Shown here: positions 28,826 through 63,360 of the stretch, in pieces
Numbering within the stretch: the stretch's first letter is position 1
Layout of the letters: each line of letters starts with the position of its first letter
Assembly: GCF_964355755.1 (NCBI RefSeq)
Contig: NC_092680.1
Coordinates: 9,029,001 to 9,093,000 of the forward strand
Source: Antedon mediterranea
Lineage: Eukaryota > Echinodermata > Crinoidea > Comatulida > Antedonidae
Direction of reading: 5' to 3'
Length of the DNA stretch: 64,000 nucleotides
Program-made: the position numbers and the translations under genes
Notes under the pieces: generated by a model
Database searches by the model: none
The model's input: the letters and a program-made list of their open reading frames with translations, nothing else
What the model was told of the DNA's origin: nothing

Positions 28826-36468
<7,643 letters not shown>

Positions 36469-48300: not shown

Positions 48301-51300
48301 TAATGGTACAAATACAGTATAATGGCATTTGGTGAATTCGCCTCGTTGATATATAACCTTTCATCATTCATCTCATGCCATTATTTGTACCATTACACTC
48401 ATAAACATTCATTATTTGTATAATAATGTACTGTATGTATGGCAATACATACATACATCATTATATCTCATGTATTTATTGCCAAGCATTGCAAACCAAA
48501 ATGTGTGCAAGAGCTAACAGAACTAAATCAAATGTTTTTTTTAGAATAATGCTAATAATAATTTTAGCATTTGTGTTATAAATTAAATCTTAATCTTGAA
48601 TGACCAACCAACAATTTACATAACCTAGATATACATTTCAGTGTAAACACAAATCTTTTTTTTTTCATATTTTCTAGTTTTTTACAAAGTCTGCCTTGCT
48701 AATGATAGGAGTGATGTCAATCATCGATGAACGTGGTATTAATGCCCCAAAGTATTTGCAACCATTCATGATTGGTACAATCCTTTTCTCCATTGGACTG
48801 ACAACCAATCGCAAAACGTACTGTTTTTTAAACCTTGCACAAGATATATCTCCACGAATTATCTTGAGTTTTTTTTGCAAAAGCTGCGAGACTCCCTGGG
48901 CGTGAGTATTATAAGGAAGCCTTTTATTTACGATAACCAACGACTTGAGAAAAGGCTAGGTCATGTCAAGTGATTGTCGTCAGTCTGCATTATACACGCA
49001 TTGAATTGACATGACCAAGTTAGGTTGTCTGTCGTCGCAAAAATCTAAAAACTACCTATTATTGTAGTTAGTGATTTGATGTGATGTATTTATTTTATTT
49101 ACTTTTTTTCTTCAAAAAATGAAATTGATTTAACATATATTTTATTATACAGATATTGCCTGCTTAGAGGTTAAATATAAGATTTGACATCCCCTAGGGA
49201 ATGATATTTTATTCGATGGAATTAATTTCCCGAAGCGCGAAGCGCTATTAGAGAAATATATTCCCTTGAACAAAATTTTATTCCCAAGGGGTTGTCAAAT
49301 CTTATATTTTACCAATATAAAAGGCGATATCTGTTAACAACAAGTTGAATATCTACTGCTGGGTCGGGTGTAGCTAGGCCTCCTTTGTAATAAGCCTGTC
49401 TCCTAGTTGCATTCACCTTACCTTGCGAAGAATAATATACAGATAATAATTACTAATTAATAATTCCTTGGCAATAAAATATTCACCTAGATCTAGGTTG
49501 TTGAAATTAACAGAAGAATTTCCATCAATAAGCCTACATTAACAATAATCATATTATAATCAGTCAGCCTAGGCCGAATAATTCTTCTTCGTCTTCTTCG
49601 AGGAGCCGAATCACCAGATGTTCACAGCATAACTGGTTTACTACCATGAGTATTAATCAATCACAAACAGTCTTTCATCACATCTAGGGAGGACTAATAA
49701 CAAATGAGGGCGCTATGTATGCATAGCCAAATGCGATTGTTGCCAGACAAAAATTACAATATCATCGTACTTGAGAATTTGCTGAATTTTATGTGTTATT
49801 GACAGGGACACGATAATTACGCGAAAATTACTCAGTCAATATCATCGTACTCAAGAATATATACGATCCTCGCAGCGGTAGTCATGTGATGCAGTTTCAA
49901 CCAATCACGTTCATGTATTTACATAGGCTATGTAATATATATATATATATTTAACATATATTTTGTATATATAATATACACTAAAATTATGTTTTGTTTT
50001 GTAGGCCTTATAACCAAACAGCTGGTGGGTGGAAAATAGAAATATTTGGACCTGTAATAGGAACAATCATTGGTGCATTTATTTACGTAATATTCATTGA
50101 ATTGCACCATAAACCATATGGTAAGCTATTACTGTTGCCTTTTATCGTTTGATAGTTTTGTTTTACAATTATTTTTAAAGAAGCAGGGTCTACAATGTAA
50201 AACAATAATTCTATGTTTAATACAGTAATTCAATAATATTACTAACATAAGTACTGTAGGCCCTACTTTAATGTAATTAGCATAACAGTGTTCTGGTTCC
50301 TGTAATAGTATCTACTTCTAACTATTTTTTTTTAAATTTTGAAAATAATGTTTAGTTCCTGGTTTAATTTTGTGTTTCTGTTATTCAGATTATGTTAAAG
50401 CAGAGGATACTGATGTTACTGATGATGGTGCAATTAGTGACGGTAAGGGTATAATAAAGTTTAATCCAAATAATTGGAAAGATGCTCATATTACACCTAT
50501 TCTTAAAGTAGGTTCCCGTGTTGAACCATCTAACTACTGTCCTATAAGCCTTACTTCTGTTGTGTGTAAACTCCTTGAGAAGTTTATAAAAAAATCTATT
50601 ATGCACCATCCTAAATCTAATAATTTACTGAGCAAACACCAACACGTTTTCGGTCCCGTCGATCCTATCTTACCCAACTTTTAGAATTTTTCCAAGATTT
50701 ACACAATGCTAAGGACGATAGTGACCCAATAGATATTATCTATCTTGATTGCAGAAAGGCTTTTGACACTGTACCACATATGCGACTTATGTCCCAAACT
50801 TGTATTCTCCAATGGATTTCAAATTTTCTTAGTCATAGACGTCAATGTGTCTCAGTCAAAGGATCTTTTTCTTCATGGCTTCCAGTTGTTAGTGGTGTGC
50901 CCCAGGGCTCCGTCCTTGGTCCTATTTTATTTCTGGTGTTTGTGAATTATCTATTAGATGATCTTAGATCAAGCGGCAAAATTTACAGACAAATATGTAC
51001 CCCACATGACAGTGTTATTCTTCAAGATGATCTTGAGAAGTTACAGGTTTAGAGTCATAAATGGTTGTTGCACTTCAATGAAAAGAAATGCACAACTTTG
51101 CATGTTGGACTATGAAATCCTCAACATTGTTATTCATTAGGTGGCTCATTGTTAACTACCTCTAAAGAGCAAAAAGATTTAGGTATTACTGTTACCTCTG
51201 ACTTAAGTCTACGGTTCATGTTGGTAAGATTGCCGCAAATTCAATGATAGGTACTATTCGACACGCCTTTACCTTTATGGATTCCAAAATGTTTCTTGCC

Positions 51301-52178
51301 TTATACAAAACTTTAGTTCGTCCTATTTTGGAGTTTTCTGTTCATCATGGTCACCGTAATTAAAGAAGAGCATTATTAAACTTGAGAAGGTTCAAAATCA
51401 TTCAACTAAGTTAGTGTCAGAACTCCAAAATCTTTCTGCACAGGAACTGCTTTCTAGGTTTGGTCTATCGTCACTCGAAGATAGACGTAGTAGAGGTGAC
51501 ATGATTGAAACTTATAAGATTGTTCATGGTCTTGACAATGTTTGTTTTTCCGACTTTTTGACTTTCCAAAATTCTTCTGGCCATTTTACACGAGGTCATC
51601 CTTTTAAGTTGTGTAAACCTCGGTTTAATACATTTAGTAGAGCCTCTTTCTTTGATTTACACATGGAACTCATTACCCTTTCACATTGTTTCAAGCCCAA
51701 CACTTAACACTTTCAAACGAACATATGACTCACACATAAACACTATGAGAGGAGGCAGCCTCTACGAGTAAATACTCTTTGCCTCCTTATTTCACTAAGG
51801 TAAGCATCACACCACCTCCTGGCTTTGTTTTTAAAAAGCCTTATCCTAGTGGTTTTATGAATAGACTACAGCATTCTAATCAGCACAGTCAACCATTTGC
51901 TTGATTGTAAACTTGTTGATGTAAAGGTTTAATTTCAATAAATTATTACTATTTTCTATATGCTTGGTTGAGCTTTGTTTTACTTATTGTTTTCTTTTGA
52001 AAATGTTGTCTGATACAACTCATAATCTCATAATTTGTTTTGGAGTATAAGAATTATTTTTAAATAACATGGCAATTGTTATATTTCAGACATTTCAGAC
52101 AACACCTATCGTTATGATGAAGTGAAACAAGATGTTGATTTTGTACGGTCAAGAAAAGTGGCTAACAGTAGGAACTAA
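45301..52178 (+). CDS. Divergent aquaglyceroporin-like channel, 3' part (7 exons, 273 aa visible)
   Basis: A membrane channel of the MIP family. Exons: 45301-45406, 46108-46245, 46433-46527, 48678-48901, 50005-50120, 50389-50442, 52090-52178; all GT..AG, phases consistent to TAA. The N-terminal exon encoding the first membrane helix was not found and must lie upstream. Recognisable segments: TINLQIALGYTLGLCLCF (helix 2), GGFLNPSIALVGWILGK (first pore half-helix and helix 3), AVLAQFFGAICGAILMNA, a Gly-rich-to-polar loop, ALLMIGVMSIID (helix 5), PFMIGTILFSIG, LNLAQDISPRI (second half-helix) and IFGPVIGTIIGAFIYVIFIE (helix 6). The aspartate after the second box (position +2) is the aquaglyceroporin mark. 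Both boxes deviate: NPS for NPA at 46119-46127 and NLA at 48831-48839, and the pore arginine after it is Gln. The cytoplasmic tail is acidic. All exons are open, so it is probably not a pseudogene. Confidence 0.88.
45572..46072. mobile_element. ~500-bp MITE filling an aquaporin intron
   Basis: AGGGACTTTACAGGACGG at the left and CATCCTGTTTCGTAAAGTCCCT at the right form short inverted ends. The element takes up most of the 700-bp intron 45407-46107. Confidence 0.7.
47543..47613 (-). tRNA. tRNA-Val(AAC)-like, probably degenerate
   Basis: On the minus strand the sequence begins GGTTTCG and ends CGAAACC, a perfect 7-bp acceptor stem. GTAGTGTAGTGGTTGTCA is a typical tRNA-Val D arm. TCTGC and GCAGA enclose the loop TTAACAC with anticodon AAC. 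The T arm (CCGTTTCGAGCCCTGG) pairs poorly and is one base short; the total is 71 nt. It lies inside an aquaporin intron, antisense. Likely a pseudogene or tRNA-derived repeat; a live gene cannot be excluded. Confidence 0.55.
47829..47901 (-). pseudogene. tRNA-Val(AAC) pseudogene, second copy
   Basis: GCGTAGTGGTTATCACG, TTACTTAACACGCAGAAGG and CTGGTTCGAGCCCGG identify the same tRNA-Val relative 290 bases away. The acceptor strands do not pair (GATTCTTG against CGAAACC) and the anticodon stem is weakened. Confidence 0.6.
48170..48430. repeat. Foldback repeat family, copy 2
   Basis: ACAAATAATGAATGTTTTAT at 48274 and its complement ending CATTCATTATTTGT at 48420 fold back on each other. 48170-48260 matches the flank at 37810-37900 in inverted orientation (TTGATTCAAATGACAGGAAT). 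Confidence 0.75.
48913..49067. mobile_element. Small MITE just after an aquaporin exon
   Basis: AAGGAAGCCTTTTATTTACG and the complement of GTCGCAAAAATCTAAAAACT are inverted ends like those at 23243 and 28453. It begins 12 bases after the exon end at 48901. Confidence 0.6.
49173..49309. repeat. 137-bp foldback sequence
   Basis: AAATATAAGATTTGACATCC at the left pairs with GGTTGTCAAATCTTATATTT at the right. The middle contains GAAGCGCGAAGCGC, so almost the whole segment can form one imperfect hairpin. Confidence 0.85.
50450..51955 (+). pseudogene. LINE reverse transcriptase fragment inside an aquaporin intron
   Basis: Pieces in several frames encode a non-LTR retrotransposon polymerase of CR1/jockey type: WKDAHITPILKVGSR, NYCPISLTSVVCKLLEKFI, IIYLDCRKAFDTVPH, GVPQGSVLGPILFLVFVN, then the C-terminal region ELQNLSAQELLSRFGLSSLEDRR. 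The catalytic FADD segment is missing and frameshifts are frequent. A 3' UTR ends near AATAAATTATTACTATT at 51935-51955. It fills almost the whole intron 50443-52089, and its first piece is in frame with the upstream aquaporin exon. Confidence 0.8.
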
Positions 52179-52619
52179 TTCACTGTGTGCATTTCCTCAA
52201 TGATTTTTTGTTGCCACAGTTTTACCAAATGATATGGGTCCAGGCATACAGATCTCTATGGTCCAGGTGACAACCAGTGTAGGTCATAGATCATCAGAGA
52301 AGCTCCATATTAGAGGTTAAAAGAATTGAATCAATATGATTATTTTGTAACAATTTGACTGACGAGTGCTAATACCGTAAAGATACTTCTACTGCAAATT
52401 TAAATGACTACCGATATTTATTTTTTATACTTTTGATTTGTATTTTATTTATTGTTTTTACATTCCAAATTAGAAATTCATCAAATTTTCCTTTTATAAT
52501 TTTATTTTTATATCTAAAAATACTAAAATTGAAATATGAAATTGAAGATGAATTTCTAAACAATTTTATATCATTACTGTATAAGGAATTAAATACATTA
52601 GTTTAAAACAAATTATTAG

Positions 52620-53945
52620 CCAGCAATTATTGATACTCTGTTTTTAGACATGAGCAAAGCATTTGATAAAATGCCCTTCGACATCTTATTAACAAAAATT
52701 GCTGTAAATTTTAATATTCAAGGTAATATCTGGAAATGGATATCTTCATACTTGACTGACAGGAATCAGAAAGTTTGTTTCAGGGGGGCTACTTCTTCCG
52801 TACTTCCAGTCACATCGGGTATACCTCAGGGCAGTTGTCTTGGTCCAATTTTATTCAATATGTTTGTGAACGATGTTAATCATAATGTTTCTTCTGAATG
52901 TTTTCTTTTTGCAGATGATATAATACTATATAGACACAGACAAAATGCCAACGATATTGTTAATTTGCAAAATGATATAAATATTTTATCTAATTGGGCT
53001 GATAAGAATCAAATGAAATTCAATGTCAACAAAACTAAATTAATGCATATCACCAGAAAGCGTAACTTTGTTAAGCCGTTGTACTTTCTTAATGGTGAGA
53101 CAATTGCGGTGGTTGATAGCCATAAACATTTAGGAGTACATATCGATTCTAAACTGAATTGGAATGTTCAAATCAATAATCTAATATCTAAAGCTAATCG
53201 AATGTTAGGCTTTATTTTTCTGTAGCCGGAAATTGTTCTCCAGACGCAATTTCGTGTCTGTACAAAACTTTGGTGCTACCTATTCTAGAGTATGGTTTGC
53301 CGGTGTGGGGCCCCAGAAATGGAGGACACATAAAACGCCTCGAACAGGTTCAGCGACGGGCCTCTAGACGTATTCTGGGACCCCACTGCGGACCTATATC
53401 ATACGACGAACGTTTAATAACTTTGGGTTGGTTATCCTTACGTGATAGACTTTTAATGATTTTAATTTCCTTTATATTTCGTTGTTTTTATAATGTAACT
53501 TGTTGTAGTACTGTAAATAATAATATCCATATCAATCAACGCCATCCTGAATTACTCACATTTGTCCACCCTTTTGCACGTACCGATACTTTAAAATATT
53601 CGTCTATCAACAATTTTCCTGTTATATGGTCATCACTACCCTCCATAATCAAAGATCAAGCAGTTACTCTTCCTTTGAAAAATTTCCTGTCGAAATTGAA
53701 AAAAATATCTGCTTGATCAACGCTAAATTTATTTTAATTGTATAGGTGTATTTTAAATTGTGTAACACAGTAATACAAATTAATTAAATTTTTTATATAT
53801 TCTGTATATTTTATATTCATTTTTAACTTGTATTAAGTTGTATGTTACAGGGATTGCGGACACAAATGTGTTATGGCGCTCTGTTGCTGTCGCAACCCCT
53901 GGACCGCTTGTTGTCGAATAAAGAAATGAAAAAATGAAAATATGC
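52620..53945 (+). pseudogene. Second LINE reverse transcriptase, one frameshift from intact
   Basis: The frame 52650-53225 encodes the RT fingers and palm: DMSKAFDKMPFDILLTKI, GIPQGSCLGPILFNMFVND and CFLFADDIILY with the catalytic FADD. The frame ends in TAG at 53223-53225; the polymerase continues in another frame (AGNCSPDAISCLYKTLVLPI, ending KISA*) to 53716, so a one-base change near 53217-53225 separates them. The 3' UTR ends at AATAAAGAAATGAAAAAATG near 53920-53940. The 5' portion (endonuclease) is absent. It lies just downstream of the aquaporin stop codon. Family: CR1/jockey-like non-LTR element. Confidence 0.85.
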
Positions 53946-54814: not shown

Positions 54815-57800
54815 TCATTTTGATGTAGCTCGTGGTCTGTAGTTCATCCCGGTCTTTGTTAACAACCACTGCGATAAATCGCATCTACCTTCTTTAATCA
54901 GTGCGCATGACAATTGTTGAATCTTTTTCAAGTCTCCGTGTGTTGAATGACACCATTGCATCAACATCTCAAAACTACGTTCTCTTGTATGGCTGTAATC
55001 GAGTTTCAATCGTTGAATTTGTGCGTTAGATAATCCAAGATGAATACCGAGACGAGTCCATTCAACCCCTAATTTGTCAGTTAGTTCCAGAATTAAGTTT
55101 TCGGACAGTAGGCTTAGACCTAAATCTGTAAATATACAATTTTGATTACTGTTAGTACATTTTATTACTGATCAAACGTTATTGGAATTATCGATGTCTT
55201 TGATAGTGTCATCCTACTAGTAACCGTTACGACATCGTTATTACTATTATGGTAATTATTATCTTTCAACAATCATCATCGTCATCACATACTTGTCTTC
55301 ATCTTCATTAGGACAACCACTTTCATTTTAAACTAAGAATATCAATTCCTAATCCACTATTATTCAATGCTAACTCTAACTTGAGTTTAGAGGTTTACAA
55401 AACTAACCGTTACTATGTGGCTCTTCTGAACGAATTCTTTCTCGTTGTAACGTAATTCCATATTTCTGAGGTGTAAACGTGTTTAAGTATTAAATTTGGC
55501 AATATAAACAATTGTAGAACAAAAAACACCAAGGAAAACAAGACAAGTGTATACTACATTGACAAATTAAACTTTTTAAATATTAATTTTAAACGAGAAT
55601 GGAAGAATATATTGGAAAAAAGACTAGGTAATAAATCTGTTATACTCTATATAATAATATGAGTGAATGTGTTTGTCCATTGATGAAACAATCATCGCAT
55701 CTATAATAATAATAATAATAATAATAAGATTTTTATAGCGCACATACCACTCCAGAGTGCTCAAGGCGCATTTAAAAATAAAAAAGAAATAAATCATACA
55801 AATTCCTGACAATCTATTATTATTCATTATTAAGGACTATTTAAAACTGAATTATTTCACATACCTTAAGACTAATATCAAACCCCACCAGAGGTGCCCA
55901 TGTGCTGTCAGCATTCCTACGTTTGATTAAATGGTTCTCATAGCTTTCCAATTTGTTTACGTAATACATACATTTTCCCAGATAACACCGACGATGAATA
56001 TCCTTTTGTGGGTCAACAGACTCTACCAAAAACTCTTCCTTCACTCGCACATTTTTATAAAACCGAAAAGTAATTTCGTTTCTACCAACGATTCTTATAT
56101 TGCCTTCTAGGGCGATCTTGACCAGTTGGCCTTCTTGGATCATGACGTCTCTACTTGGTGCTGGAGGTCCGCAGTAGTTATCTTCCTTAAGTTCTACCAC
56201 TGCGTCTTTGCATTGTGCACTTGGAACAATTCGTGTTATAAAATTCTCTTCATTGTCTTTATGGTGGTGGAGAATAACGTTTGCAGTTTGTTGTGCACAT
56301 GTGTTTTCCAGAATGTTAGCTACGTCAGGCAGAAGATCGGTCGAATTTGTTTCGATGACAACCATTTTGTTCCTAAAAAAGGCATTGCTTATATTATTCG
56401 TTTGTCAACTTATTTAGGTCTTTTTATGAGTGTCATTTACTGGGAATAGATTGTGACGCTTTGAAATCATACAATTGTCAAATGAGCTACATAACACTGG
56501 AAGGGTGTTAAATATCACGTAACATGTTTTTAACTCATCAATAAGTAACGTAAAATTTACCGTGGGATTTCTTACATACATAGGTTCCTGAAAAGTATGT
56601 TTTCTGGTTGTTAGCGAAGCGATAATGTTTGGGCTAATAACAGGTGTTTCATAGTTTTCTTTTCTGTTTTTCTGTATCAATAATTATTCTGATGACCTGT
56701 TATAAATATGTAAATTACGTAGCAAAACCTACCAACCTTTTGTTTAGTTTATTGGTATGAAAAGAGATAGTGCCATCATTGGGTTTTTGAATATCAAAAA
56801 CATCACATGTTCTCCATGATCCTGTGTGTAATTTGGAAAGAACATAGATTGATGACATTTCTGACTTTTCATGTTTCTTGCCAGTTGGAGCCGTACGAGG
56901 TCGATGATGTTTGTCTTCTGCATTAGTATTGACGTGGTTTCGAATTGGAAGTGTAATTTTAACTGGTAGGACAACATTTGTTGCGTTACTTATTGTTAGT
57001 TCAACAATTAAGAAAGGACTGTAAGATACCACTTTGTGTTGATTCAAGTTCGAAGAATGTTTAGTTATCGGTTGAACCTAGAAAAAAAAAATTGATAGAT
57101 TTGAAATCGTCACCACGTCGAGTTGGGTGGTTCGCGAAAACGGAACATGATTGTATTACATTACGTTAGAATATGTGAACAGAAATTGGATGTATGTTGT
57201 CCTATTATGTGTATATAATGTTGGATATGTTGGTAGTTGGTTGCACAACTTCAGATTAATACATCATACATAGCAAGATTACTGCTATTGCCATTTTAAA
57301 GAAAACTGTGACATGCGTTATGTGTATTCCGAATCCCTTACCATAATTTGCACCTTCTCTGACGTACATAGATTATTCGGATCAAACGTCAAACGCACTT
57401 TAGGTTCAGTATGCGAACTGATACTACCACCATTTTTGTCAATCGTTACTCTATCTCTCTCCAACCCAATGACAATACAATATATTCCAAACGGTTTGTC
57501 TTCTATTTTGCAAACAGGTTTTTCCTAAAGGTTTCGAAAAGTAATAATAATAATTATTGTTTTATTAGATTAGACCAAGCTTGGAATTACACAAAATCGG
57601 AAGACTTCTTTTGACGTCTAACTTATCCAATTGATTATTTTCAAACACACTGTTGGTTTGTATTTGATATCGTATCTTAATTGAAAAGAAATGTATTATA
57701 GACATGTTAAATGAAATAATGTACACATAGACTTACCTGATGGTTTACGATTGATGAGGTGGTGACTGTATTCCAGCTTGTACCATCATCAATAGAAGAC

Positions 57801-60254
57801 TTGACGATAAGTCGTTCTGACGTCACGCTTTGGTGATGACGAATAGGTATTTGAATTGTAATTAATGAATCCTTATAGACGTTTTCAGTCATGTCTATCT
57901 TTATAATATCACTTATAAGTTCCTCGCCATCTTGTAGTGGTAGATGAACGGTATTTGACACATTTGTGACAGTAGTAACAGCATTATCCAAAGAGGTGGA
58001 AACAAAGCACAACAGTTGGTCGGTTTTGTCATCCATGAATCTGACAAAGATAAGGTGTAGTTAAGGACTTTTGCTAAAGATGCACTGTCTAATTAATTTT
58101 GAGTGATGTATCATGCTCCATATGACGAAATTTTCCAGTATCATAGACAAATTCTATCACTCAGCATCACATACAGGCTCGCATGTGAAACACGTGTGTT
58201 GCTTTATCGCAGAATCTGCCTATATTTGAAAACATAATAGTTGCATAATTCAATATTTTAGTTATTTACTTACCGTTGCACCTTTTCTTTTCGTTGTCTT
58301 CCTTTTAACGTATGACGTTCTTCTCTTAAGACTGGGTGTTGCGTTAAGATATCTACTATAGGTTTATTATGTACACGGCCTAATTTTCTAATTCTTCGAG
58401 ATGATGATGTTTCGACTTGGTTCCTTGTAGCTGACACTTGCTTGCTAATCATAACTTCAGTTGGTGTAGGAAGTTGGTTTACTGGTGGAAGCTAACAGAA
58501 AGTTGTATTAGTTGATTTACCTTCCAATTATAAGTAACCAATAATTGTAGTAATGTAATATTTATAATTGAGAGAGAATTCGTTTCTTCAGATATAATTG
58601 CTCATTTCTTAAATGCGACATGATCATGCTTCATGTAAAAGTATTTAGTGTTTGTGTAACTGTTTTAGTTAATCTTAACATTATATCATGTCATTTATAG
58701 CCTAAAACAATTGCTCAATGATGTAAATATATAGGCCAGAATAGCTTACTATTAGGCCTAAACTTGTTATCGTTACCTTCTTAGTACTAGATATACCGCC
58801 ATGACTTTTCACGATTTTAACTATTTCTTCCAGTATATTAGAAATTGACGTTCCAAATTGAGAGATTTGTAAAAGTTGTAAGTTTTGGTAACATCTTTGA
58901 AGTTCAGCAACCCATCCGTATATCTGCTTAAACTCTGTTTCCATGTTAACAACAATGATTGGTTTATTGTACAAACAACTATACCTACATACTTGAATAA
59001 ATATTGCAGTATCGACAATTAAATTATTTTTCTTTAAAAAATGCAACAAAATAGGAAATATGGTTACATTTAAGAAAAAAATATCTAGAAAAGCAATTGG
59101 TCATATTGTGTTAAACAACATACTATATACAGTTGATAAAACGAACATTAATTTGTGCTCTTTGACCTTTCTTAAGTGATTTAACAATGTTTATCTAATA
59201 ACGCGACGACGTATACCCACTTAAAGCACTGTATGAGACGACCCTCGGAGTACTTACGTATCCACAATTATAGATAATGAAGCTGTACTTAGCATAAATA
59301 ACAACACAAATTGAGTGTGTTATGTAATACAATGCTATTAACTATTTCTTACTTGTTTTGCAAACGTTATTTTCCATATTTATCTCAGATAGATACACGA
59401 TAACAGCTACAGCGTGTTTAACGCTATCTGACAAACTATCCAATATAAGATCTTCAGATACGTCGATGTCAGCTCGGACCGCAATTCCATGTTCCAACAA
59501 ATGATTCCATATTTTTTTAACATTCCTGAAAAATCAACAAAAAAAACGAAAAAAAAAATTGACTAAAAAATTCGAATTTCTTAGTCTATTTTTTCAGACC
59601 AAATTACCAGTAGAACATGATTGTACACTATACAATCTATCAACCTTCAACTGCTTCTGTAGTACGATGTACGACTCATTTGATTATGTCTGTTAATGTT
59701 ATTATAAACCAAAAGGAATAAATTAGTAACATCATCAATGTACGTAATTTATAAATGTATAAGTTTGAAAATATGACAAGTCAGTAAAGCGTTATGCTTT
59801 GAATTTACAAGTTGATGAATAAAAGAAATGGAAATATATCGTAAAGAAAGAAAATAACGTTCTGTGTAATATCACTTAAATATTCATTGATAAATAGATA
59901 GATAGACATATACTGTAACCTTTACCATATTGTTTATCATTGCAATAAAAGTGGGTTGCCCCCACAAAAGAGAAAAAAAAAACATTTTCAAATCTTTAAT
60001 TGATAATAATATTTTATATAATCTTTTAACCTCAGTCTATGTAATATCACTTAAATAATCATTGATAGACATATATACTGTAACCTTTACCATATTGTTT
60101 ATTATTGCAATAAAAGTGGGTTGCCCCCCCAAAAAAGAGAAAAAAAAGAAAGAAAATAAGTAATAAGATAAACTTACTTCTCATCAGAGTAATCGTATGT
60201 CATCAAAACATAACCGGTAGTTTTAAATCGACTATGCCTTGATGTTGGGTCCAT
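54815..60254 (-). CDS. TIR-ZU5-ZU5-UPA-Death protein (PIDD1-like with TIR), 10 exons, 795 aa
   Basis: Exons 5' to 3': 60254-60178, 59525-59353, 58991-58777, 58491-58274, 58040-57737, 57524-57342, 57077-56737, 56372-55865, 55465-55408, 55125-54815. All are GT..AG and the phases close exactly (2388 nt). Residues ~13-150 are a TIR domain (GYVLMTYDYSDE, VKHAVAVIVYLSEI, NKPIIVV, GWVAELQRC). 156-228 is a basic linker. ~229-350 and ~350-520 are two ZU5 domains (DDGTSWNTV; NGGSISSHTEPKVRLTF). ~525-675 is a UPA domain (YCGPPAPSRDV, EITFRFYKNVRVKEEF, ADSTWAPLVGFDISL). 695-785 is a Death domain (LGVEWTRLGIHLGLSNAQIQ, RSFEMLMQWC). This is the C-terminal architecture of PIDD1 with TIR replacing the leucine-rich repeats. 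It is probably a cytosolic innate-immune or death adaptor. The autocleavage HFS motifs are absent. An upstream coding exon cannot be excluded, since the frame is open to about 60321. Confidence 0.88.
55706..55727. repeat. (AAT)n microsatellite in an intron
   Basis: Seven consecutive AAT units in the 55466-55864 intron of the TIR/PIDD-like gene. Confidence 0.9.
59860..60145. repeat. Direct repeat of about 105 bp in intron 1
   Basis: TAATATCACTTAAATATTCA to GCAATAAAAGTGGGTTGCCC at about 59868-59960 recurs at about 60041-60127 with few changes. Both copies are followed by an A-rich run, which suggests two insertions of one element or a local duplication. Confidence 0.8.
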
Positions 60255-60970: not shown

Positions 60971-61090
60971 TTTTAGTCGCGTGGAAGCGACTCTATAGTT
61001 CACTATGTCGGTCGGTCGGTCTGTCTGTCTGTCTGTCTGTCGGTCTGTCTGTCGGTCTGTCTGTCTGTCTGTCTGTCGGTCCGGTATCAC
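60971..61090. repeat. GTCGCGTG-bounded element, copy 3
   Basis: TTTTAGTCGCGTGGAAGCGA, CTATAGTTCACTATGTCGGT, then about 80 bases of GTCGGTCT/GTCTGTCT repeats ending CCGGTATCACTATGCG. The following 61110-61610 is a separate segment closely similar to 25750-26290. Confidence 0.8.
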
Positions 61091-61610: not shown

Positions 61611-61663
61611 ATAAATGTTTTTAAACATTTCAACATTTTTAAACATGTTCAGTAATTTCGGTC

Positions 61664-61785
61664 AGTATAGTTCACTATGTCGGTCGGTCTCTCTGTCTGT
61701 CGGTCTGTCTGTCGGTCTGTCTGTCGGTCTGTCTGTCGGTCCGGTATCACTATGCATTGTAGCACGCGACTTAATGGCTGTTGGC
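61664..61785. repeat. GTCGCGTG-bounded element, copy 4
   Basis: TATAGTTCACTATGTCGGTC, a GTCGGTCT repeat block, then CCGGTATCACTATGCATTGT and AGCACGCGACTTAATGGCTG: the reverse complement of copy 1 at 4738. Confidence 0.8.
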
Positions 61786-61789
61786 CTTG

Positions 61790-63360
61790 TTTAAATATAG
61801 GCACATTTCTGCAATATACTGTTGTATAAGAAAAACAGTATATTATTCTGTTTGGAACATCCTTTCTATACGTTAGTAAATCTTGGACCAGAGAAAGGTG
61901 GTTGGTTGGTTGGTTAAATGCGTTGCTTCCGATCCACAACAGAATTTAGTGTTCAAAAGAAAATGACATTGTAAATGTGTTGAAGACTTTAGATCGCTAC
62001 CGTACTGAAGTAGCGGGAGACATAATTTCAATTGAAAAAATGGTGAAAATATGAAATATATTATTTATTGCTTAGTGTAGGTGTGATAGGTTTTTTTTTA
62101 TTAGGCATTAAATAATAACGTAAGGATGTGTATCAGTGCTTGAATCAACACGACTCAGTCGTTCATCATCTAAACGTTGTCTAGTTTCAAATACACTCGC
62201 GCGCGTCATACTGACCAATACCTTAAGAGGAGACGGTTAAATAAACTAAGCGTAAATTAACTCATTGATGGTTTCTTTCAAGATCTATACACCGTATAAT
62301 CATAATTGTGACGTCACAATGGCTTGCTTCCTACTCCTTAAATTAAAAAAGTACAATAACGGCTTTGTAGCATTGCATCTGCAGCAATATACATTGCAAT
62401 AATCACCTTGTTTAAGCAACACAACCGACACCAATCCCTAAGCAGACGAATATGAGGTAAGTGATGTTTATAGGCCTACTGGAGTGCCATCAGAAATATA
62501 TATATAAAGCCCTACATATAATATTTGTTTATGGTTTAATACGCCTGATAAATGATACCCAAGTTCCATAAAGATGGCTCAATTGCCGAGTTAGATTTGT
62601 TATGTCTTGGGTTCGTGCTTCCATGGAACACGGAGAATGAAGATGATAATAATTCGTTCTCAATCTTAATGAAACATTATATTATTGTTTATTATTATTA
62701 TTATATTAATTGGTTTTGATATTATTAGGTAAGGTCTATAATCACTTAATGTAATTTGCTTCATAAATGAGTGGAAGTATATAAACACCCTTATTATTTT
62801 TTTTTTCAATAGAAAGTGCACTGTCTCGCACCACCAAACATTTATGATATGGAAAAAATTATGAACAGATACTTTGTCACATTATATTAAAACCACATTA
62901 TAATGCTATTTCCCCCACCCCCAATCTCCCCTAAAAATTAAGACAGCCATGGACTCCTCCATTTATTCAATGGGTTCACAATTAGAAATGAATCGGAAAT
63001 AACTTTTCATCGCAGTGTAGTCTTTAATTACTAATCTCGTTTATAAAATACAAAATCAATTAGTAGATTCATACAATTTGTTATTGCTAGCTGTTGTTAT
63101 TTAACAACTGCAAATTGAATTTAACGTAGGTAAACAATATAGGCCTAGCGATAGTTAGTTGCCAGTTCCATTTATCTGTGTAACGTAACGTTTTGCCAAC
63201 ACACACCGCGACACACGGCGGCATGCGATGTTCTGCGGACCATACAAAAGGTCCTGGAAAGGGGCGTAAATAGTAAGGCTAGGCCTAGCCTACGGATATA
63301 AGACTCTAAATAACTACTACCACTTCATAGATGAGGTAGTGATTTAAATGTAGTAGCCGA
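61790..63360. other. No gene seen; one isolated splice-donor-like site
   Basis: GAATATGAG|GTAAGTGATG at about 62450-62468 could be the end of a 5' exon of a gene to the right, but nothing else supports it. The rest is AT-rich with TAGGCCTA words. Confidence 0.3.

Follow-up and report, generated by a model that had tools for sequence, protein, structure and literature searches.

Gene Structure and a Diverged Second Copy

The window analysed here, a stretch of 64,000 nucleotides of the crinoid Antedon mediterranea (contig NC_092680.1, positions 9,029,001 to 9,093,000), holds in our judgement one intact ten-exon gene on its minus strand (60254-54815), whose product would have the uncommon architecture TIR, basic linker, ZU5, ZU5, UPA and Death. 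In the spliced reading, all splice sites follow the AG/GT rule and the exons combine in one continuous frame of 2388 coding bases, i.e., 795 amino acids and a TGA stop, which agrees exactly with the exon number, span and length given in the original prediction for this DNA. The intron phases from 5' to 3' are 2, 1, 0, 2, 0, 0, 2, 0 and 1, the motif AATAAA begins 64 bases past the stop codon, and the G+C content is 0.376 in exons vs. 0.287 in introns.

The TIR domain is encoded by exons 1-3 (60254-60178, 59525-59353 and 58991-58777), where TIR_2 covers residues 18-103 of the 795, and is followed by the basic linker of exon 4 (58491-58274), which is entered in phase 0, left in phase 2 and has no family match. 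Exon 5 (58040-57737) carries the first ZU5-like domain, assigned from the alignment with a second copy of the gene (see below) and from the match of a two-copy profile to the ankyrin-2 structure 4d8o, with no Pfam ZU5 match; exons 6 and 7 (57524-57342 and 57077-56737), with a phase-0 intron between them, carry the second ZU5-like domain and the stretch following it, assigned from matches to ankyrin ZU5 domains. The UPA-like domain lies in exon 8 (56372-55865, 508 bases, entry phase 2, exit phase 0) and is assigned from similarity z-scores, with no Pfam UPA match. Finally, the short linker exon 9 of 58 bases (55465-55408, phase 0 in, phase 1 out) leads to exon 10 (55125-54815), containing the stop codon and a Death domain that matches both Pfam Death and the PIDD Death domain in the PDB.

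When the whole protein was searched against the assembly (354 Mb, 18 contigs; all match lists reported here hold the best candidates only), 37 matches were listed at E up to 0.1, ten of which are the window gene itself, three (ZU5, UPA and Death) lie at 16.21 Mb of the same contig (C11), one is a UPA-like exon on contig C7, and the other 23 cover the Death part only. On reading the C11 locus around the ZU5-UPA-Death exons, TIR-like frames were found upstream on the same strand, giving a paralogue (C11:16215020-16209467) that lies 7 Mb from the window gene. Its TIR exons, taken from splice candidates, are located at C11:16215020-16214947, 16214519-16214350 and 16214216-16214032, exons 5-8 at 16212746-16212425, 16211983-16211807, 16211267-16210918 and 16210694-16210187, and exons 9 and 10 at 16209959-16209911 (49 bases) and 16209807-16209467. 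Outside the TIR domain, the two copies are 26% identical over 576 aligned positions (E 2e-43). The intron phases of the paralogue follow the same series, where the fourth is inferred from the phase in which exon 5 is entered. Its UPA exon is likewise 508 bases long, and its exon 9 has good splice sites with phases 0 in and 1 out. The phase agreement is not fully independent, because the paralogue sites were chosen among the listed AG/GT candidates with knowledge of the window gene, and exon 9 was sought under its phase. Neither the 21 matches listed for the paralogue query nor the 37 listed for the window protein include a third gene of this layout.

Since a very diverged second copy with the same layout exists in the same genome, we regard the fusion as a real and old gene, while from the window copy alone the TIR and ZU5-UPA assignments would be tentative. 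The predicted order of the domains is thus supported by the paralogue, and in addition by shared introns and a collinear match to ankyrins, which are described below. That we are dealing with a pseudogene, i.e., a decaying or non-expressed copy, seems highly improbable to us: reverse-transcriptase-like frames past the 3' end and the diverged TIR sequence could be read in this way, but there is not one frame break or lost splice site across the 2388 coding bases, and the frames are kept at 26-29% protein identity between the copies, which implies long selection.

The TIR Domain and Its Connection to the Rest of the Gene

A profile was built from 11 other TIR domains of the genome, with both TIR-headed genes left out; it gave 20.8 bits for the TIR of the window gene and 26.1 bits for that of the paralogue, vs. 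12.5 bits for the best of 2000 shuffles. The paralogue TIR passes TIR_2 (E 1.9e-11, 45 bits), with no match to the TIR model PF01582, and the TIRs of the two copies share 29% identity over 100 aligned positions (pairwise E 3e-10). These results favour the reading of exons 1-3 as a TIR domain. TIR intron phases 2 and 1 are common to the window gene, the paralogue and a TIR-Death candidate adjoining the paralogue.

Several results weigh against the proposed architecture and have to be set beside this evidence. In the window protein TIR_2 reached only E 0.0048 and 17.8 bits, below its cut-off of 28 bits; the 92 TIR_2 matches listed genome-wide include the paralogue (E 0.23) and not the window copy, and the two-copy TIR profile matched no TIR structure in the PDB. 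Pfam gave no match for ZU5 or UPA in the window protein and none above cut-off in the paralogue, where UPA_2 remained below it (E 0.11). AlphaFold models of the single exons 8 and 5 had predicted local distance difference test (pLDDT) values of 39.2 and 36.1 and were not used. Lastly, the linker exon of the paralogue was not found at the C11 locus, so that phase and strand are the grounds for joining its TIR to its ZU5. The hidden Markov model search, which had been suggested as a check of the domain order, thus bore out the Death domain (E 7.3e-9, above the Pfam cut-off) but not the TIR domain of the window copy, nor ZU5 and UPA; two weaker Pfam matches of the window protein were also below cut-off, and in genome scans with PF17217 and PF17809, the exon matches listed (4 and 2, respectively) were at other loci throughout.

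The missing linker exon of the paralogue, together with the weak TIR of the window copy and the many TIR and Death exons that stand apart in this genome, could point to two same-strand neighbours that only seem to be joined, with exons 1-3 forming a TIR gene and exons 5-10 a separate gene for ZU5-ZU5-UPA-Death. We find this improbable, since the paralogue has its exons in the same order and on one strand. Its exon 3, with exit phase 0, and its ZU5 exon, with entry phase 2, also require a 0-to-2 linker, which is what exon 4 is in the window gene. Moreover, exon 3 of the window gene ends at a splice donor, and the gap between exons 3 and 4 is only 285 bases.

For the single ten-exon gene, the next question is what kind of TIR domain it carries, as either Toll-type or nicotinamide adenine dinucleotide (NAD)-related signalling had been proposed. 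It is already known that more than 70% of TIRs share one glutamate, which is critical for NADase activity, and that metazoan SARM1 is a TIR NADase (both as stated in the cited part of PMC7075850). In our alignment this glutamate, located between strands C and D, is replaced by isoleucine in the window gene and by valine in the paralogue; at the same position 10 of the 11 other TIRs of the genome have glutamate, and the remaining one has aspartate. A SARM1-like TIR NADase governed by the ZU5-ZU5-UPA-Death part would be in line with the paralogue TIR matching TIR_2 and not PF01582, but it is decidedly improbable considering the absence of the glutamate from both copies, while the TIR gene neighbouring the paralogue keeps it. 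NAD-related signalling is therefore not favoured, although some doubt remains, as there is a glutamate in the paralogue TIR two residues beyond the usual position, which counts against our reading.

The ZU5-ZU5-UPA-Death Module

The module had been described as PIDD1-type. Human PIDD1 entered our comparisons as a provisional sequence, and similarity z-scores were calculated against 300 shuffles, with several segments joined by eye. UPA and Death of the window protein align with human PIDD1 at a pairwise E of 3.6e-13, and the paralogue aligns with it from ZU5 to Death at E 1.5e-10. Among solved structures, the best match of the single window protein is the PIDD Death domain (E 2.9e-5), while the second ZU5 of ankyrins matches its residues 324-435 over the listed chains (best E 0.00012). 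With the two-copy profile, ankyrin-1 (1.8e-13) and ankyrin-2 (4d8o, 2.5e-13) were matched collinearly from the ZU5 tandem to Death, where profile positions 35-223 align with the ZU5 tandem of ankyrin-2 and the UPA piece of the 4d8o match is weak (2.7 bits). For the Death part of this profile, RIPK1 (5.2e-8) gave a somewhat stronger match than PIDD (5.7e-7). The Death domain of the paralogue passes Pfam Death (E 1.4e-9); among the 67 matches listed when the genome was searched with the human PIDD Death domain, that of the window gene comes 15th.

The z-scores differ between the parts of the module. For the window UPA they were 33.7 to a gene on C7, 24.3 to the paralogue, 5.9 to human PIDD1, 4.1 to an ankyrin-like gene, 1.5 to a UNC5-like gene and 0.7 to a gene on C2 (these genes of the same genome are treated in the next section), and for the window ZU5 tandem 24.7 to the paralogue, 15.9 to the ankyrin-like gene, 5.1 to human PIDD1 and 0.9 to the C2 gene. 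The window Death domain scored 18.7 to the paralogue, 18.1 to the TIR-Death neighbour of the paralogue, 16.5 to human PIDD1, 9.2 to the C7 gene and 2.5 to the C2 stretch. In the paralogue, the UPA scored 9.5 to human PIDD1 and 7.9 to the ankyrin-like gene, and the ZU5 tandem 6.6 to the ankyrin-like gene and 5.5 to human PIDD1. Judged from these scores, the UPA of the window copy leans slightly to PIDD1 and its ZU5 tandem to ankyrin. Because of these z-scores and profile matches, we take the module for a member of the ZU5-ZU5-UPA-Death group, and not specifically for PIDD1. The PIDD1-type label is thus acceptable for the similarity of UPA and Death, but less so for the whole module, where the ZU5 tandem is nearer to the ankyrin-like gene, RIPK1 is preferred for Death and the HF/S site is absent: the HF dipeptide occurs neither in the window protein nor in the paralogue (the latter read without its linker exon).

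Related Genes in the Same Genome

The ankyrin-like gene lies on C6 at 26.46 Mb and is named ankyrin from its ZU5-ZU5-UPA_2 exons alone. Three introns of the module match it in phase. The phase-0 intron within the second ZU5 shares one alignment column between the window gene and the ankyrin-like gene (in the paralogue it is three columns off), and the phase-2 intron at the UPA start lies 40 residues before a matching aspartate in the ankyrin-like gene vs. 39 in the window gene, although the automatic alignment set these introns nine columns apart, beside an unknown stretch filled with X; the third, at the UPA end, has phase 0 in both genes. Between the two ZU5 domains the intron phases disagree (0 in the window gene vs. 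1 in the ankyrin-like gene), and the latter has extra introns of its own.

With the ZU5-UPA part of human PIDD1 as query, two weak matches were obtained in the genome (E 0.117 and 0.169), the second of which led to C2:9987715-9985679 on the minus strand. Here, one open frame of 679 residues contains leucine-rich repeats (LRRs; LRR_8 6.6e-11) and two ZU5 stretches (ZU5 5e-10), the first ZU5 being followed by HFS and the second by HFT. Over 110 residues, the LRRs of this frame share 34.5% identity with human PIDD1, and its presumed UPA stretch did not align with PIDD1. Death-like frames were seen by eye downstream of this frame (locus to 9982892, minus strand). A genome scan with PF10461 gave nothing over cut-off (best E 1.87), which says little because the HFS-bearing gene on C2 was missed too. 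It thus seems that the two TIR-headed genes are accompanied in this genome by a likely PIDD1-like gene with an LRR head, whose assignment to PIDD1 is putative.

These genes bear on the claim that a TIR domain has taken the place of the LRRs of PIDD1. The claim is right in that the window protein has a TIR domain and the linker and no LRR match in Pfam, but the protein is not simply PIDD1 with swapped LRRs, because the HF/S site is absent and an LRR-ZU5-ZU5 gene with HFS is found on C2. A further-reaching alternative would make the window gene the PIDD1 orthologue and its product the self-cleaving PIDDosome of this animal, and for this speak the alignments of both copies with human PIDD1 and the PIDD Death domain as best solved match of the window protein. 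We consider it unlikely, owing to the HF/S site missing from both copies, the HFS-bearing gene on C2, the ZU5 tandem of the window copy being nearer to the ankyrin-like gene, and the rank of its Death domain among the matches to that of PIDD.

Directly downstream of the paralogue (C11, about 16208075-16205712, minus strand) are TIR exons (TIR_2 E 5.4e-21), in which the TIR glutamate is kept, and a Death exon (E 4.6e-15), which starts in phase 1 as in the window gene. Since this candidate, in which the TIR-Death join is putative, shares the TIR intron phases and the Death entry phase with the TIR-headed genes, a common origin of the TIR exons is suggested. Tandem duplication with joining could account for this arrangement, as could the loss of the middle part.

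On C7 (24047810-24041150, minus strand), a gene with a long acidic N-terminal part has ZU5-like, UPA-like and Death exons, and its UPA is closer to the window gene than that of the paralogue. Inspection by eye showed no TIR in those of its frames that were read, and C7 is absent from the matches listed in both TIR scans. We presume that this gene may be DTHD1-like. At C6:19148390-19147611 (minus strand), only two adjacent Death-like frames were seen by eye in the piece read at 19.15 Mb. As for TIR exons elsewhere, a cluster of 16 matches lies at C3:5548621-5658729, perhaps Toll-like receptors, and a run of 12 TIR_2 matches at C11:5616407-5664235 resembles tandem copies.

Proposed Function and Comparison with Known Systems

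Based on the predicted domains, we consider it reasonably probable that the protein is an adaptor in the order TIR, basic linker, ZU5, ZU5, UPA and Death, i.e., a non-cleaving PIDD1-type scaffold with TIR input. Its TIR domain would dock on other TIR proteins, the likely Toll-like receptors in the genome being one example. The ZU5-ZU5-UPA block would hold or present the Death domain, as modules of the ankyrin and UNC5 type do, and the Death domain could then nucleate a Death-domain complex and recruit a partner; the docking and recruiting steps are taken from the behaviour of the families. Many TIR and Death exons across the genome are possible partners. In PIDD1, the Death domain is the part that binds RAIDD, leading to caspase-2; CARD exons are also present in this genome. 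A non-enzymatic, non-cleaving adaptor is favoured because both copies are without the HF dipeptide and the TIR glutamate. PIDD1 self-cleaves after each ZU5 at HF/S (cited part of PMC3210808), and self-cleavage of this kind is probably not to be expected for the window protein; the same applies, probably, to the consumption of NAD.

Compared with PIDD1 (LRR-ZU5-ZU5-UPA-Death), the protein has the same C-terminal order and similar UPA and Death domains (provisional human sequence), but TIR and the basic linker stand for the LRRs, HF/S sites are lacking and the ZU5 tandem is nearer to the ankyrin-like gene. Ankyrins (ankyrin repeats-ZU5-ZU5-UPA-Death) are alike in the collinear profile match and in the three in-phase introns of the own-genome gene; unlike them, the window protein is TIR-headed, much shorter, and without ankyrin repeats (no Pfam match in the 795 residues). 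UNC5 and FIIND proteins also have ZU5-UPA beside a Death-fold domain, Death or CARD (as far as described in the cited part of PMC3210808), but with one ZU5 instead of two, and the window UPA is hardly similar to the UNC5-like gene of this genome (z 1.5). MyD88 and TIR-Death proteins share the presence of TIR and Death in one chain, and the TIR-Death candidate by the paralogue shares the TIR intron phases. However, in MyD88 Death comes first and TIR last (cited part of PMC7075850), whereas here TIR is first and ZU5-ZU5-UPA stands between.

Many TIR hybrids are reported from amphioxus, among them "direct connection" hybrids such as TIR-NB-ARC-WD40, in which TIR is likewise fused to an apoptosis scaffold (PMC2575513); that scaffold is of the Apaf-1 type, unlike the ZU5-ZU5-UPA-Death of the window protein, and the word ZU5 is absent from the main text of that paper (its supplements lying outside the scope). 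TRADD-N proteins with FIIND or UPA-ZU5 (PMC8195603) and combinations of ZU5 and NACHT in cnidarians and sponges (PMC8260672, PMC12909245) are also reported in the parts cited. In the literature searched, the scope of which excluded supplementary tables and subscription papers, we found no description of TIR joined to ZU5-UPA-Death, and hence, as had been supposed, no described protein with this order.

We tentatively propose, as one possibility, an undescribed family of animal adaptors, TIR-ZU5-ZU5-UPA-Death, which may link Toll-type TIR complexes to a PIDDosome-like assembly without MyD88 and without self-cleavage, and which may be old, with two members at 26% identity. TIR and Death complexes are usually joined via a separate adaptor, so the single chain would, if true, be a direct wire between them. 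The gene would also be a natural case of a ZU5-ZU5-UPA-Death module without the autocleavage motif of PIDD1, and with two diverged copies and an LRR-headed gene at hand, the relative timing of the attachment of the TIR head and the LRR head becomes askable.

Surroundings in the Window

Just past the 3' end of the gene, at 50349-53716 on the plus strand, retroelement reverse-transcriptase-like open frames, broken into several, were recognised by eye. Upstream of the gene, short tandem repeats of the GTCT/GTCG type were seen in the same way at 60990-61090 and 61649-61829. Elsewhere in the window, at 30185-35912 on the minus strand, exons were assigned by eye to a ClpX-like ATPase whose N-terminal part is zinc-binding.

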